Assembly: GCA_030525525.1 (NCBI GenBank)
Contig: JAUNEN010000007.1
Location: 1-64,000 of the forward strand
Reading direction: 5' to 3'
Source of the DNA: Erysipelotrichaceae bacterium
GTDB taxonomy: Bacteria > Bacillota_I > Bacilli_A > Erysipelotrichales > Erysipelotrichaceae
DNA length: 64,000 nucleotides
Shown here: positions 46,008 to 55,024 of the stretch, piece after piece
Layout of the letters: every line of letters starts with the position of its first letter
Position numbering within the stretch: the first letter of the stretch is position 1
Notes under the pieces: model-generated
Told to the model about the DNA's origin: nothing
The model's input: only the letters and a program-made list of their open reading frames with translations
The model's database searches: none
Made by a program: the position numbers and the translations under genes

Positions 46008-47063
46008 TTAAAGCTTTGAAACAGCCGATGAATCAAGGATTCTGCACAGTTCAACGCCCAGCTTTACCGCATTTTCATAATCATCCAGCCTGCAATAGCA
46101 GTTTGATGAATGAATATAGCGCACCGGTACACCGATGACAATCGCCGGAACGCCATACATCTGATTGACCATCGCACCGTTTGTGCCGCCTCCCGAGCGC
46201 ACCGACTCCTGAACAGGAATACCTTTTTCTTTCGCAACATCAAGAGCCAGCTTCTGAAAACGCCAGTTGGTGATCATCGAAACATCCATATGTCTTAACA
46301 TCGGGCCTTTTCCTAAACCGGCCTGAATCATATACGGTTCACTGAATGTATCATCTGCCGGACAGCCTTCAAATGCGATCATTACATCCGGCTTGAGAGC
46401 TTCCGCATTGGCGCGTACACCACGCTCACCGACTTCTTCCTGAACGGAGAAGCTTCCCTGAACATTGCACGGAATCTCTTCATCCTGAAGCCTTTTCAGC
46501 ACTTCGATTGCACATGCCACACCGATTCTGTCATCAAACGCTTTCCCGTAGAACAAGCCCCTTTCATCATCATATCGGCATTTCACATCCGGAACACCCG
46601 GACATCCGATTCCGATTCCGAGCTCTTCTGCTTCTTCTTTGGAAAGAGCACCGACATCGAACACCATATCGGAAACTTCAGGCATATTCCCGCGGGCAGC
46701 CTTGCTCATGAAGTGCGGAGGCGTTGTTGCAACAACCCCCGGAATATCCTTCCCTTTTCTGCTTCTGATGATGAAGGAGCTGGTCGGGAATGACAGCGCA
46801 TTCCATCCGCCGAGCGGCAGAAATCTCATCGTGCCGTTAGGCTTGATTGCCTGGATGATCACGCCTGTTTCATCCATATGCGCATCTAGCATGACCTTTG
46901 GTTTATCTGAACCCGGTTCCTTTTCGCAGCGGACATTTGTCATATGATCCGTGAAGGTTTCATATCCTTCAAGTTCATTTCTGACAATCGCAGCCACATC
47001 ATCTTCGAAACCGGAAGGTCCGAAAGCATCTGACAACGCTTTGATTCTTTCGATTGTTTCCAT
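46008..47063 (-). CDS. M42-family aminopeptidase (glutamyl aminopeptidase-like)
   Basis: A 351-residue dinuclear-metal peptidase of the PepA/FrvX/TET type. Motifs: DAFGPSGFEDDV, MLDAHMDETGVI (His/Asp metal ligands), FDDRIGVACAIEVL (bridging Asp), SVQEEVGERGV (catalytic Glu-Glu), SGGGTNGAMVN and PVRYIHSSN (final His). It would break peptides supplied by Opp import or turnover. The start at 47063 follows GGAG; the longer frame has no site. It ends 60 bases before sepF. Confidence 0.92.
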   Translation of the reverse strand: METIERIKALSDAFGPSGFEDDVAAIVRNELEGYETFTDHMTNVRCEKEPGSDKPKVMLDAHMDETGVIIQAIKPNGTMRFLPLGGWNALSFPTSSFIIRSRKGKDIPGVVATTPPHFMSKAARGNMPEVSDMVFDVGALSKEEAEELGIGIGCPGVPDVKCRYDDERGLFYGKAFDDRIGVACAIEVLKRLQDEEIPCNVQGSFSVQEEVGERGVRANAEALKPDVMIAFEGCPADDTFSEPYMIQAGLGKGPMLRHMDVSMITNWRFQKLALDVAKEKGIPVQESVRSGGGTNGAMVNQMYGVPAIVIGVPVRYIHSSNCYCRLDDYENAVKLGVELCRILDSSAVSKL

Positions 47064-47136
47064 ACAAAAAAGTCTCCTTGTCCTGACAATATCATATGCC
47101 AATTAATGCACCCTGTCGCCTGTTTTGAATCCATGT

Positions 47137-47174
47137 AAAAAAGCAGTGTTCAATTCATTTTGAATCACTGCTTT
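47137..47174 (-). terminator. Terminator of the opp operon
   Basis: AAAGCAGTG-TTCAA / TTGAA-CACTGCTTT with a one-base offset (47140-47174) and T6 on the minus strand. Confidence 0.9.
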
Positions 47175-47187
47175 CATTTCTTTGAAA

Positions 47188-47234: not shown

Positions 47235-47474
47235 TCAGAATATTCTGAAAATCAACTGTGCAATAAACACGATGAGCAGAAGAACACCCAGACATGCCGG
47301 CACGATTGTGATCCATGCGGATACAATCAATGAGAACATATCCTTCTTGTCAAGCATATCCTCAAGTGTCGGCTCATAGAGTTTTTCGCCGTTGTATTCC
47401 TCGGGAATCTCATTTGGAGCAGCCTGTTCATGCTGGTATTTAAAGGCACGGTCAATTTTATTCTGAAATAACAC
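47235..47474 (-). CDS. Small single-pass membrane protein in the opp operon
   Basis: 79 residues, beginning MLFQNKIDRAFKYQHEQAA. A polar, acidic N-terminal half (EYNGEKLYEPTLEDMLDKKD) precedes one long membrane helix (FSLIVSAWITIVPACLGVLLL then IVFIAQLIFRIF, about 47-79). There is a GTG start at 47474 with GGAGTAATT before it; it begins just after the oppF stop. I do not know the family. Its place suggests an accessory subunit of the peptide transporter, orienting its N-terminus to the cytoplasm by the basic/acidic balance (tentative). Confidence 0.75.
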   Translation of the reverse strand: MLFQNKIDRAFKYQHEQAAPNEIPEEYNGEKLYEPTLEDMLDKKDMFSLIVSAWITIVPACLGVLLLIVFIAQLIFRIF

Positions 47475-47476
47475 AA

Positions 47477-49021
47477 TTACTCCTTCGCTGAACTATCTTC
47501 AGTATGATGTTCTTCAATATCAAGTCCGTTCATCAGCGGATGATGACATGCAACAAAGTGATTCGGTTCAACTTCATTCCATGAAGGAACAACCTGTTTG
47601 CAGATTTCAGTGCAGTAGCGGCATCTTGTATGGAACTTGCATCCCTTCGGAGGGTTGACCGGTGAAGGAATATCACCTTCAAGGATCTTAAGCTCTTTGT
47701 CAGCGTCCGGATCAGTTGTCGGAATCGCAGCGATCAGCGCCTGTGTATACGGGTGGATCGGCTTTTTGAACAGATCTGCCGAAGAAGCAAGCTCAACCAT
47801 GTTGCCGAGATACATAACACCGATTCTGTCGGAAATATACTTAACGACAGAAAGGTCATGGGTGATGAAGAGATAAGTCAGATCCTGCTTTTCTCTGAGG
47901 TCCTGAAGAAGGTTGATAATCTGTGACTGAATGGAAACGTCAAGAGCGGATACCGCTTCGTCGCAGACAACAAACTTCGGCTTGACAGCAAGTGCTCTGG
48001 CGATTGAGATACGCTGTCTCTGACCGCCTGAGAACTGATGCGGGAAACGATGCAGGAAGTAAGGTGCAAGACCGCAGTCGTTCATAACACTCAGAATATA
48101 ATCCTGCATTCTCGGGCTGTTGCCTGAGAAGATGTTATGAGCTGTCAGACCTTCACCGATAATCTGACCGATTGTGAAACGCGGGTTCAGAGATGAATAC
48201 GGGTCCTGGAAGATAATCTGCAGATCCTGTCTCAGAATACGGATTTCGTTGTATTCAAGACGGGCAAGATCGATGCCGTCCGTATAGAACTCATCGTATT
48301 TCTGGAATTCCGGATCGTTCAGATACGGCTCACGCATTTTTGCGATTGCCTGGTTTGCTTCAGCAAGCTCAGCATCAGTCTTTTCAAGTTCCGCCTTGTA
48401 TTCGCTCAGCTTCTGATCATAGCGGCTTAAATTCTTTTTCTTGAATTCAGCATCTTCACGCTTCGCGGTTGTTTCGGAAATCTTTTCGGTCAGCTGTCTG
48501 TGCTTGAGCGCAAGATTGTATTTCTTTTCAAATGCAGCCTTGACAGGTCCAAGATCACTCAGGGTCACAAGACCGCCGATGATGTTTGTAACATCCTGCA
48601 GAGCGTCATGAGCTTCTTTTTTCGCAGCTTCCAGTTCAGCATGCTTTGCATACTGCTCTGTTTCGGAAAGCTGATCATAAGCAGCCTGCAGTTCATCTCT
48701 CTTCGCTGCAGTCGCATGGATTTTTTCCTTGCGCTTGTCAAGATCCTTGACAGTTTCAAGCATATATTTCGGTGCAATGTCATCAAGCTTTTTGCCGTAG
48801 TACATTGTCTGTCCGTCTGTCTGACGGTACAGCTGCAGAATTGTACGTCCGAAAGTTGATTTGCCGCATCCTGACTCACCGACGAGTCCGAATACTTCAC
48901 CCTCATAAATATTCAGGGTAATGCCGTCATTTGCTTTTACGAATTCTCCCTTTTTCTTCAGCGGGAAATACTGTTTGAGGTTTGTGATTTTCAACAGAAC
49001 ATTCTTATTTGGCTGTGACAT
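47477..49021 (-). CDS. oppF: Oligopeptide ABC transporter ATPase OppF with coiled-coil insertion
   Basis: 514 residues against about 310-330 for usual OppF. Walker A GESGCGKST (48-56), Q-loop IIFQDPYSSLNP (Q272), signature FSGGQRQR (330-337), Walker B FVVCDEAVSALD (353-355), H-loop THDLS (H388) and the Opp C-terminal cysteine motif CKFHTRCRYCTEIC. Between Walker A and the Q-loop, residues about 83-260 are an extra, strongly charged helical region (DLDKRKEKIHATAAKRDELQ, KYNLALKHRQLTEKISETTA, YKAELEKTDAELAEANQAIA) predicted as a coiled coil. All nucleotide-binding motifs are intact. It overlaps oppD by 17 bases. Confidence 0.95.
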   Translation of the reverse strand: MSQPNKNVLLKITNLKQYFPLKKKGEFVKANDGITLNIYEGEVFGLVGESGCGKSTFGRTILQLYRQTDGQTMYYGKKLDDIAPKYMLETVKDLDKRKEKIHATAAKRDELQAAYDQLSETEQYAKHAELEAAKKEAHDALQDVTNIIGGLVTLSDLGPVKAAFEKKYNLALKHRQLTEKISETTAKREDAEFKKKNLSRYDQKLSEYKAELEKTDAELAEANQAIAKMREPYLNDPEFQKYDEFYTDGIDLARLEYNEIRILRQDLQIIFQDPYSSLNPRFTIGQIIGEGLTAHNIFSGNSPRMQDYILSVMNDCGLAPYFLHRFPHQFSGGQRQRISIARALAVKPKFVVCDEAVSALDVSIQSQIINLLQDLREKQDLTYLFITHDLSVVKYISDRIGVMYLGNMVELASSADLFKKPIHPYTQALIAAIPTTDPDADKELKILEGDIPSPVNPPKGCKFHTRCRYCTEICKQVVPSWNEVEPNHFVACHHPLMNGLDIEEHHTEDSSAKE

Positions 49022-50000
49022 GACGGTCCTCCCTTCTCGGATAGAAGCAGCGGATCTGCTGTGTTTCGTTCACCTGTACCAGATCAGGTTCTTCGGTCTG
49101 GCACTTTTCCGTCGCATATTTGCAGCGCGGCGCAAACTTGCAGCCTTTCGGAAGATTCAGCGGATGAGGCACAGCGCCCGGGATGGATTCCAGACGTTCA
49201 TTTGCATCGGAATCAAGTCTCGGAATTGAGCGGAACAGACCTTCTGTATACGGATGCATATATTCCGGATCAGAGAAGATTGTACGTCTCGGTGACATTT
49301 CGACAACCTGTCCGCAATACATAACTGCAACGTCATCAGCCATCTGGTTGATAACACCGAGGTCATGCGTGATAAACAGAATGGAAGTTCCGAGTTCTTT
49401 CTTCAGATCATTCATCAGTTTCAGAATCTGAGCCTGGATTGTAACGTCAAGAGCAGTTGTCGGTTCATCGGCAATCAGCAGCTTGGGACGGCACGCGAGG
49501 GCCATCGCAATCATAACACGCTGTCTCATACCGCCTGAGAGCTGATGAGGATACTGCTTAGCGACAATCTCCGGGTTCGGAATCTTGACGTCCGCAAGGA
49601 TTTCAACGACTTTCTTTGCTGCTTCCTTCTTGGACATGTGCTGGTGGATAATGAATGTTTCAGCAACCTGCTTCTCAACCGTGAATACAGGGTTGAGGGA
49701 AGTCATCGGTTCCTGGAAAATAACTGAAATCTTGTTACCGCGGATCTTGTACATTTCCTGCAGTGACTTCTTTGTAAGATCTTCACCTTCGAAAATGATC
49801 TCACCGCTTTCGATATAGCCGTTGGCGTCGAGCAGCTGAAGGATGGACATAGCGGATACGCTCTTGCCGGATCCTGATTCACCGACGATACCGAGTGTCT
49901 TTCCTTCATCTACCGAATAGTCGACGTCGTTGACAGCCTTAACAATACCTTTCTTGGTTGTAAAGTAGGTATGCAGATTTTTAACTTCAAGCAATGCCAT
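49005..50000 (-). CDS. oppD: Oligopeptide ABC transporter ATPase OppD
   Basis: A 331-residue ATPase, normal length. Walker [13 protein letters not shown] (about 40), Q-loop [12 protein letters not shown], signature [12 protein letters not shown], Walker [14 protein letters not shown]-loop THDLGV, and the oligopeptide C-terminal region with [14 protein letters not shown] (Fe-S-like cysteines found in OppD/DppD). Partner of OppF in the ATPase heterodimer. AAGGAGG precedes the ATG, 13 bases after oppC. Confidence 0.96.
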
Positions 50001-51862: not shown

Positions 51863-52879
51863 TTACTTGTCCACACGTACACGCGGATCAACGAAGCTGT
51901 AGCTGAGGTCCATAATCAGAGCACCGACAAGGCTGACCACACAGTAGAACATCTGCATTGCCAGAGCCAGATCGTAGTCATGGCTGTTGAGCGCTTTGAT
52001 ATACAGGGAACCCATACCGTTGATACTGAATGTGTTCTCAATAATAACTGATCCTGAGAAGATACCGAGGAACCAGCCGATAATCAATGTAATGACAGGA
52101 AGCAGAGCATTTCTCCATGCATGGGAGTAAATGACAGTCTTTTCCTTAACACCCTTTGCACGTGCTGTCTTGATATGATCCATGCTTAATGCATCAATCA
52201 TGGAAGCACGTACATAACGTGTCATACCGCCGAGTGAACCGAATGTGATAACAATCAGCGGGAGCGCGAAGTAATACAGCATATCGAGCATCTTTCTGAG
52301 ACCGGTATAGTTTGCGCCGGGTGTACCCATACCGCTGACCGGGAACCATCTCAGAACAACTGCAAACAGGAAGATGAACACAAGCGCAATAATATAGACA
52401 GGAATACTGTAACCGATGATTGTGAAGACCATCGTAAAGTTGTCAATCTTACCGCCTTTGTGAACCGCACAGTAAATACCGAGCGGGATCGTGATGCCGA
52501 GCGCAAGAATCGTTGAGAAAATGTTCAGGAAGATTGTTGTCTTCATCGGTGCAACAACGACTTCAATAATGTTCTTCTTGAAGTACAGCGAATAGCCGAG
52601 GTTGCCCTGCAGCAGGCCGTTGAAGCCGTTCTTCACTGTCGGAAGAATGCCCATCCAGCGTGCATATCGAAGGATAATCGGATCATCAAGACCCATTTCA
52701 AGACGAAGCTGCTGATACATCTGCTGATATTGTTCAGGCTTCAGTGATGTCTTCATTGCTTCAAGCTGATTACGTGCGGGATCGCTCGGAATCAGGTTAA
52801 AAAGGAAATACATCAAAAAAGAAACAATGAAGAAAACGATCACCATGTAGAGAATTCTTTTAATAATATACTTTTTCAA
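51863..52879 (-). CDS. oppB: Oligopeptide ABC transporter permease OppB
   Basis: A 338-residue membrane subunit: TM1 (ILYMVIVFFIVSFLMYFLFN), the soluble LRLEMGLDDPIILRYARWMG, helices 2-5, the EAA-type coupling loop (MSMIDALSMDHIKTARAKG) and C-terminal helices ending with YSFVDPRVRVDK. It pairs with the propeller-carrying OppC. TTG start at 52879 with GAGGAGG five to nine bases upstream. It is separated from oppA by two hairpins, which may lower its expression relative to the binding protein. Confidence 0.96.
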   Translation of the reverse strand: MKKYIIKRILYMVIVFFIVSFLMYFLFNLIPSDPARNQLEAMKTSLKPEQYQQMYQQLRLEMGLDDPIILRYARWMGILPTVKNGFNGLLQGNLGYSLYFKKNIIEVVVAPMKTTIFLNIFSTILALGITIPLGIYCAVHKGGKIDNFTMVFTIIGYSIPVYIIALVFIFLFAVVLRWFPVSGMGTPGANYTGLRKMLDMLYYFALPLIVITFGSLGGMTRYVRASMIDALSMDHIKTARAKGVKEKTVIYSHAWRNALLPVITLIIGWFLGIFSGSVIIENTFSINGMGSLYIKALNSHDYDLALAMQMFYCVVSLVGALIMDLSYSFVDPRVRVDK

Positions 52880-53068: not shown

Positions 53069-55024
53069 TTACTCTTCGATATAAGCATAGACAACTGCCT
53101 GATAGAAGTCAAACAGTGAGTTGCATTCGAGGTTCTTGATCTTGGAATTCATAATGTCGTAATAAACGTTGGAATACAGCGGAACTTCAGGGAGATAGTC
53201 ATTCCATTCATCGATGAAGTCTACCCAAGTCTGCAGATATGTAGCATCATCGCCAGCTTCAACGCCATAAACCATATCCATGGAGAGCTTGTCGAGCTTT
53301 TCATCATCTGTGAAGTTGGTGTTCCAACCCTGAGCTACGAGTTCCGGATCCATTGTGAACTGGTAGGACTGGTCATAGAGAGCTGTGAAGTTTGTAGCGA
53401 GGTTGTACATGCCATATGTCTTAACGCCATACTGTTCACCCTGAGTTGCATCACGGTACATGTAGTTCAGAAGGTCATCGAAGGACATAACGTTCTGGTT
53501 GATTTCCATACCAGCCTTCTTTGTCTGTTCGCCGTTAGCGAGCATGACAGCGAGGAGTTCGGATACGGAGTTGCCTTCAGAAGAGGACCATTCGATGTGG
53601 AGAGGCATCAGCTTCTTGCCGTTGACTGTAACGACGCCTGTATAATCTTTGCCTTCAGCAACCTTAGCTTCTTCATCTGTAACTTCCTTGTAACGGACAA
53701 GGCCGGAACCGTCTACATAGTCTGTTCCGTCAGCGTTGTATACCCAGCCGCCTTCCTTGAGGACTTCGACAGCTGAATCAAGGCTGTAGTCATAAGTTTC
53801 GAGCTTTTCAGCAAGCTGTTCTTTGGAGTCTTTGTACATCCAGGAAGCAATTCCATACGGGCCGTGAACGACTGAACCGTAACCTTCGCAGAACTGGTTA
53901 GCGAATTCATTTCTGTCGAGCAGGTAAGCAACTGCATGACGAACTTCCTTGAACTGTGTCGGACCGAAGTCGCACTGGAACATCAGCTTACCATAACCGT
54001 TACGGTCATAGTGAACTTCTGAGAATCCACCAGATTCAACGAGGTCAAGAGCTGCGTTAACCTGAGCACCACCAGTGATGGAGGACAGGAAGTCGATAGC
54101 GCCTGTCTTCAGAGCATCGATCTGTGTTTCGTCTTCAGCCTTGACAACGATGATCTTCTGAACGTGAGGCTTCTGGCCTTCGAAGTTTCCACCGTACTTT
54201 TCATTGATTTCGAGTGTAGCTGTCAGAGCTGCCTGGTCGAATTCCTTCAGTGTGTAAGGGCCGGCAGAGATTCTGTCAGCATATACATAACGGGAAGCAT
54301 CGAGTTCGGATGCTGTGATTTCACCATCTGTGAAGTAAGCGCCGTCGCCGTCGTCAGCAACCTTGATGTCTGTCTGGCTCGGAGCATAGAGCTTCATGGA
54401 AATCGGGGACAGAGAAGCATAGCTCTCTTCGAAGTAGTAAGGAACATAGTCGGATGTGATGGAGATTGCATATGTGTAATCGTCAATCAGTCTGACACCG
54501 GACAGCTTGTTTGTTTCGCCGTTCTGGTATTCCTTAGCACCGACAACCTGGTCGGAAGAAACTTTTGCGCCTGCTTCTTTGTTCTGTGCAGAGTAAGCAA
54601 CAAGTGCATAAGCGACATAGTTAGCAGCTGTGATCGGATCGCCGTTGTTGAATGTCAGGCCTTCCTTGATCTTGACTGTGAATGTCTTTGTGCCGTCATC
54701 GTTTGCGACAGATTCGATACCTGCGCATGTTGTAGCGTTTTCGACGAGTTCGCCGCCCTGGTCTGTTGTGACTGTGCCATAGTCATCGATCAGCTGACGG
54801 ATCATTGCGTCTGAAGCGTTGTTTGTCCACCAAGCATTACCAAGGTCACCGGACAGTTCAGTTGTGCTTCCGTAGATAATCTGGCCGCCGACTGGATGTT
54901 CATCAGTTGCAGCTTCGCCTGATCCACCATCGGAAGGTGTGTTGCCCTGGGCATCACCGTTGGAGCATCCTGCGAGCATTGCAAGAGCAAGAACACCGGC
55001 TAACCACTTTCTTGAGTTACTCAT
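53069..55024 (-). CDS. oppA: Peptide-binding lipoprotein OppA (SBP family 5)
   Basis: A 651-residue lipoprotein. Signal peptide with lipobox LAGC (acylated C20), then a Ser/Gly/Asp linker (GDAQGNTPSDGGSGEAATDE), then the SBP_bac_5 fold (GQIIYGSTTELSGDLGNAWW, VKIKEGLTFNNGDPITAANY, VRHAVAYLLDRNEFANQFCE). It captures peptides outside and presents them to OppB/OppC, and so could touch the OppC propeller. Longer than E. coli OppA (543). TAGGAGG lies before the ATG. The first and probably most highly expressed gene of the operon. Confidence 0.95.
   Translation of the reverse strand: MSNSRKWLAGVLALAMLAGCSNGDAQGNTPSDGGSGEAATDEHPVGGQIIYGSTTELSGDLGNAWWTNNASDAMIRQLIDDYGTVTTDQGGELVENATTCAGIESVANDDGTKTFTVKIKEGLTFNNGDPITAANYVAYALVAYSAQNKEAGAKVSSDQVVGAKEYQNGETNKLSGVRLIDDYTYAISITSDYVPYYFEESYASLSPISMKLYAPSQTDIKVADDGDGAYFTDGEITASELDASRYVYADRISAGPYTLKEFDQAALTATLEINEKYGGNFEGQKPHVQKIIVVKAEDETQIDALKTGAIDFLSSITGGAQVNAALDLVESGGFSEVHYDRNGYGKLMFQCDFGPTQFKEVRHAVAYLLDRNEFANQFCEGYGSVVHGPYGIASWMYKDSKEQLAEKLETYDYSLDSAVEVLKEGGWVYNADGTDYVDGSGLVRYKEVTDEEAKVAEGKDYTGVVTVNGKKLMPLHIEWSSSEGNSVSELLAVMLANGEQTKKAGMEINQNVMSFDDLLNYMYRDATQGEQYGVKTYGMYNLATNFTALYDQSYQFTMDPELVAQGWNTNFTDDEKLDKLSMDMVYGVEAGDDATYLQTWVDFIDEWNDYLPEVPLYSNVYYDIMNSKIKNLECNSLFDFYQAVVYAYIEE

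Follow-up and report, generated by a model that had tools for sequence, protein, structure and literature searches.

A conserved small membrane protein gene encoded with one lineage of oligopeptide ABC importers in Erysipelotrichaceae and related bacteria

The end of an opp operon in an Erysipelotrichaceae bacterium raised the question of whether a short open frame behind oppF is a gene and, if so, whether its product belongs to the peptide importer. The window, by which we mean the whole analyzed stretch of 64,000 nucleotides, carries oppA, oppB, oppC, oppD, oppF, and the small gene in this order, all on the minus strand (Table 1). The initial annotation had placed a 79-residue frame with a GTG start at the operon end, right after the oppF stop and behind a clear ribosome site. 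These features were all recovered, on the minus strand: reading from 47474 to 47235 gave GTG, 78 sense codons, and TGA, two bases lie between the oppF stop (47479-47477) and the GTG, and the AAGGAG site precedes the start at the spacing listed in the table. The frame had also been said to precede a terminator. RNA folding of 47237-47130 (108 nt) agreed, yielding two hairpins with a z of −4.17, the second of which (47175-47139) runs into a T tract; however, a simple pattern scan for terminators did not list this hairpin. OppA, OppB, OppC, OppD, and OppF were all present as separate genes, and the small protein is none of these five by sequence.

Table 1. Coordinates of the opp operon and of the signals around the small gene in the window.
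Feature	Position	Strand	Remarks
oppA, substrate-binding lipoprotein-like	53069..55024	(-)	named by position and by eye
oppB, permease	51863..52879	(-)	named by position and by eye
oppC, permease with RCC1-like beta-propeller after first membrane helix	50013..51848	(-)	
oppD, ATPase	49005..50000	(-)	
oppF, ATPase, 514 aa	47477..49021	(-)	insert at ~95-245 splits the ABC domain match
Ribosome-binding site AAGGAG	47480..47485	(-)	read directly; within last oppF codons, 5 bases before GTG
Small membrane protein gene	47235..47474	(-)	79 codons, GTG start, TGA stop
Terminator-like hairpin into T tract	47139..47175	(-)	downstream of operon; RNA folding
Small protein layout (residues)			charged N-terminal part 1-45; core motif ~42-62; predicted membrane helix ~46-78

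Evolutionary rates were compared among relatives of the small protein. The dN/dS ratio ranged from 0 to 0.18 in 22 within-group pairs, and was 0.12 and 0.15 between the window protein and its two nearest relatives. Several families of the class share the core E-K-G-D-x-x-A-x-I-x-[AS]-A-x-x-[TV]-x-x-P, leading into one long membrane helix; this core starts with D-K-K-D in the window protein and with E-K-G-D in most relatives. Over the 62 rows of the alignment, the conserved positions were E/D42, K43, D45, A/S48, L/M49, A/S52, A/G53, T/V56, I/F57, P59, and L62, with D45 present in all 62. An untranslated chance open frame or remnant of oppF might be suspected, since the frame is short, its start is GTG, and one genus (L027, L028, L030, L032, and L034) has no ATG, GTG, or TTG in the right place but only CTG. 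Nevertheless, the low dN/dS and a motif kept over many genera, together with the profile-free comparison given below, practically refute such an origin, which we consider scarcely credible. The 79-codon frame is a real gene under purifying selection, and where the initial annotation had staked its proposal on conservation of the frame in relatives, both the sequence and the place after oppF proved conserved. In the genus noted above, the likely start is a CTG that lies a few bases downstream of an AGGAG-like or AAGGA-like site; CTG may serve there as a natural start codon, or the frame may be reached by a frameshift from oppF.

The distribution of relatives was followed with searches of increasing breadth. 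In GTDB genome contigs, an initial scan reduced 77 pattern matches to five relatives, all titled Erysipelotrichaceae or Solobacterium. A contig of the culturable strain NK3D112 carries a copy with 75% identity (L002). The single-sequence search matched 11 of the 60 genus genomes and 34 of the 272 family genomes; for the family match G152, the scanned frame had an internal stop, and a stop-free frame was read in L143. Profile A1 (29 rows) matched 71 of the 294 order genomes and, in a phylum sample of 295 genomes, 12, all of which fall in the same class. Profile A2 (62 rows) matched 44 of 395 class genomes, a count that is an upper value at weak E, because four matches (G593, G644, G647, and G678; E 5e-5 to 1.4e-4) were false, lying inside ABC permease frames of 829-858 residues. 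A one-protein search of viral contigs showed no relative, and a plasmid search gave no match.

Relatives fell into two types that agree in their location behind oppF and in their membrane half. The E-K-G-D type is about 55-95 aa long; members of the D-D-G-x-T-I-x-x-M type, represented by the 15 rows of alignment A3, have about 72-99 aa. Comparison of the A1 and A3 profiles gave a probability of 91.8 and an E of 7.5e-7 over 40 columns; because membrane helices can inflate such scores, homology of the two types is likely, as judged from sequence, rather than proven. Small proteins with D-D-G-R-T-I-A-D-M presumably also occur in Clostridia.

The position of the small gene was then compared across loci. 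Among 35 loci with a printed match, it followed oppF in 31, oppD in three, and oppC in one, and in the 31 post-oppF loci the mechanically chosen start lay between −29 and +7 bases relative to the stop of oppF. In the first 35 loci, which include some contigs fetched twice and one (L029) that begins at a contig end, 33 small genes followed an ORF ending in the OppF C-terminal signature, and that of L035 followed oppC. Nineteen of 20 wider loci fetched for a match had the gene after oppF; in the remaining one, L088, with a C-F-D order, it followed oppD. A further 20 loci, partly controls, had the small protein in 15 (12 after oppF, two after oppD, and L127 after oppC), the E-K-G-D profile found none in L125, L126, L128, and L131, and L142 ends at a contig edge. 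The genome of L128 (G003) has an oppF followed by the D-D-G type at L165. The class search added 20 loci, 16 with the gene after oppF and four false. Where the order of D and F was swapped (L088, L143, and L133), the small gene was still last.

One genome, G177, showed a different arrangement, in which oppA-oppB-oppC are followed, after 153 bases, by the small gene, which has a ribosome site of its own (L127:4900-5400). No oppD or oppF lay beside the small gene, and no full cognate oppF was found in this draft genome. The G177 copy would suit a small membrane protein separate from the importer, such as a sensor of peptides or stress, that simply has to be co-expressed with peptide import. However, genome G043 has two tandem opp operons, each with its own small-gene copy (L086 and L009), and the gene follows one OppF clade only and is missing behind the other opp/dpp operons in these genomes, as described next. 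We regard a separate protein as quite improbable. Genome G052 similarly has two opp loci with one copy each (L164 and L174).

As an exhaustive control, OppF itself was searched: a 269-residue query from the C-terminal half of the window OppF was run against 148 genomes of the order (completeness of at least 90% asked, E ≤ 1e-75). The search listed 130 places, and the downstream DNA was read for all of them. The small protein was carried by 37 of the 130 and was absent from 93 (73 plus 20); the carriers had the E-K-G-D type directly after oppF in 25 cases, the E-K-G-D type after oppF-oppD in eight, and the D-D-G type directly after oppF in four, although the E-K-G-D matches are not independent, because that profile was partly built from members of the same genomes. 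A profile-free criterion was also applied: an ORF of 45-130 aa with a KD19 of at least 2.0 and a start between −35 and +60 relative to the oppF stop was found for 28 of 29 direct carriers and for none of the 93 non-carriers (0/73 and 0/20). Its sole miss was L150, from the CTG-start genus.

A quick maximum-likelihood tree was built from 110 of the 130 OppF fragments, leaving out the 20 later-fetched loci. In this tree, which has moderate support and some long rows that are unsure, a branch with an SH-aLRT of 93 separated 41 fragments, 37 of them from carriers, from 69 fragments with no carrier among them. The carrier label required three changes at the fewest (e.g., one gain and two losses), compared with a mean of 31 for shuffled labels, none of 500 shuffles being as low, with the reservation that near relatives make any label cluster. 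Eight genomes (G000, G031, G138, G108, G207, G062, G003, and G014) contain both an OppF with and an OppF without the small protein, and the window's own genome has two other OppF copies (L233 and L234) without it. Hence, the search behind oppF in relatives that the initial annotation had suggested showed that the gene tracks one OppF clade; the small protein is encoded and inherited with one transporter lineage.

Four loci inside the carrier clade (L179, L183, L209, and L214) had no small protein, and therefore the transporter apparently can work without it. That the importer stayed while the small gene was lost would also be expected of a biogenesis or quality-control factor of the same Opp lineage, one outside the finished importer that helps OppB/OppC insert, recruits OppD/OppF, or feeds a protease. 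The shared operon and clade link, the small size, and a start that lies near the oppF stop or overlaps it fit this as well; yet no finding separates a transient from a stable partner, and we consider such a factor unlikely.

The predicted structure was consistent with the one long C-terminal membrane helix proposed at first. The C-terminal hydrophobic stretch covers approximately residues 46-79, with a 19-residue Kyte-Doolittle mean of up to 2.79, and AlphaFold2 with 62 rows placed a short helix at 4-17, a low-confidence linker, and one helix at 43-78. The mean pLDDT was 76 with 62 rows (83-97 in the helix blocks) and 73 with 29 rows; this fold prediction is of a single chain and is uninformative on partners. 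With a single predicted membrane-spanning helix and fewer than about 100 residues, the protein has the build of small accessory membrane subunits. An exception among members was L085 (L085:6900-7184), where an extra C-terminal hydrophobic stretch probably makes two membrane helices.

The acidic N-terminal half noted in the initial annotation was seen in the window protein, whose first 46 residues contain 11 D/E against 6 K/R, but the family does not share it: among the 62 rows, the region ending at the conserved Asp had a net negative charge in 29, a net positive charge in 25, and no net charge in 8. Lys and Arg averaged 8.4 residues up to the conserved Asp (D45) and 0.9 after it over these rows. 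By the positive-inside rule, we infer from this charge difference an orientation with the N-terminus inside. The conserved residues at 42-62 start at the putative cytoplasmic border and reappear at intervals of 3-4 residues. The helical periodicity of conservation was not significant over 41-78 (p 0.13), and it gave p 0.03 for 45-66, a range chosen afterwards.

The initial annotation had recognized no known family, and database comparison bore this out. No match reached the cut-off in Pfam or NCBIfam, and nothing in PDB fell below an E of 0.79; membership of a known family was rejected on these three collections. The best Pfam E-value, 0.00074 for EOS1 with member L031, was below the cut-off of that model, and DUF4730 reached 0.0024 at best in 6 of 29 members. 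CcmD had no model among the Pfam matches, and the operon is opp rather than ccmABC. The AcrZ, CydX, and KdpF families were likewise missing from the matches of the Pfam and NCBIfam scans. Regarding a small protein after oppF, nothing relevant was found in the open-access literature searched. The small protein is real, conserved, clade-specific, and undescribed within what was searched. To our knowledge, no Opp importer has been described with a small accessory subunit.

As a kind, however, the small protein belongs with the small accessory subunits of transporters. KdpF is a one-helix small subunit of the same type as AcrZ and CydX. The latter two have one helix and stabilize or modulate the large membrane complex to which they bind (PMC7267776, PMC6005532), a role like that proposed for the present protein. 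The partners differ, being an RND pump, an oxidase, and, for KdpF, a P-type ATPase. In the CcmABCD heme-handling system, CcmD is a small single-helix protein in an ABC complex with a part reaching the cytoplasm; its only binding partner is CcmC, its N-terminus lies outside, and it is reportedly required for CcmE release (PMC9616876, PMC10457321). In contrast, the Opp small protein, with a charged N-terminus and a C-terminal helix, would have the opposite orientation and another partner. By analogy, CcmD is the nearest known arrangement of a single helix in an ABC complex. In the canonical Opp/Dpp layout, one operon encodes a binding protein together with two permeases and a pair of ATPases, the translocator is a B-C-D-F heterotetramer, and E. 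coli DppABCDF has five distinct subunits (PMC12136057); the terms 'small' and 'additional subunit' are absent from the main text of that paper. The window-type operon differs in encoding a sixth, single-helix protein last.

The initial annotation had pointed to small membrane subunits that tune ABC transporters; conservation and the clade link support such a subunit, for which a tuning role would be putative. We consider it fairly probable that the ORF encodes a dedicated sixth component, a single-helix accessory subunit, of one oligopeptide ABC importer lineage, bearing in mind that operon position alone can reflect shared regulation. In this model, translation would restart at the oppF stop on the same message as OppABCDF, and the inserted protein would keep its charged N-terminus cytoplasmic while the short C-terminal end reaches the outer face. 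The small-residue face, formed by E/D42, K43, D45, A/S48, A/S52, A53, T/V56, and P59, may then pack against OppB/OppC helices near their cytoplasmic ends, where the protein would most likely stabilize the complex or adjust the coupling of the permeases to the OppD/OppF ATPases. Here, OppB/OppC as the binding partner and the effect on transport are what we infer. A stronger version, plausible but short of probable, is a sixth stoichiometric subunit, overlooked because its gene is short, whose E-K-G-D / A-A-T-P face would sit beside OppB/OppC at the cytoplasmic gate and control OppD/OppF coupling, the two subfamilies being variants.

If the product of this sixth gene, conserved in an Erysipelotrichaceae-related lineage, is part of the importer, then models, annotations, and reconstituted complexes of that lineage lack it. 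The small protein is a directly testable candidate for an intramembrane regulator of an ABC importer, and its link to one clade points to the transporters worth testing and to the same-genome paralogs that can serve as controls.

Other features of the operon were also observed. The OppF insert at ~95-245 is long, charged, and, by eye, coiled-coil-like; many carriers of the small protein have a shorter OppF, mostly 327-350 aa in L157-L169. In OppC, approximately 290 residues between the first membrane helix and the permease domain form an RCC1-like beta-propeller (Pfam RCC1_2, five repeats, E 4.6e-34; also OppC_N and BPD_transp_1). With this region and the adjoining permease as query, 57 of 266 family genomes matched at E 1e-20, the weakest six of the 57 being the permease part only. 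No paper on an RCC1-like domain in OppC was found in the literature search; the propeller may serve the peptide importer as an extracellular domain for docking or as a receptor. A strict link between the small protein and the RCC1-type OppC was rejected, as both combinations occur: the small protein accompanied it in L080, L082, L088, and others, and was present without it in L076, L084, L092, L093, L130, L132, and L134-L140. Loci L125 and L126 have an RCC1-like OppC and no small protein, with an OppD that was dissimilar or not seen. The next gene downstream in the window, on the same strand (46008-47102, minus), is M42-type aminopeptidase-like by eye, and a similar gene follows in L005, which fits a neighborhood of peptide import and breakdown.
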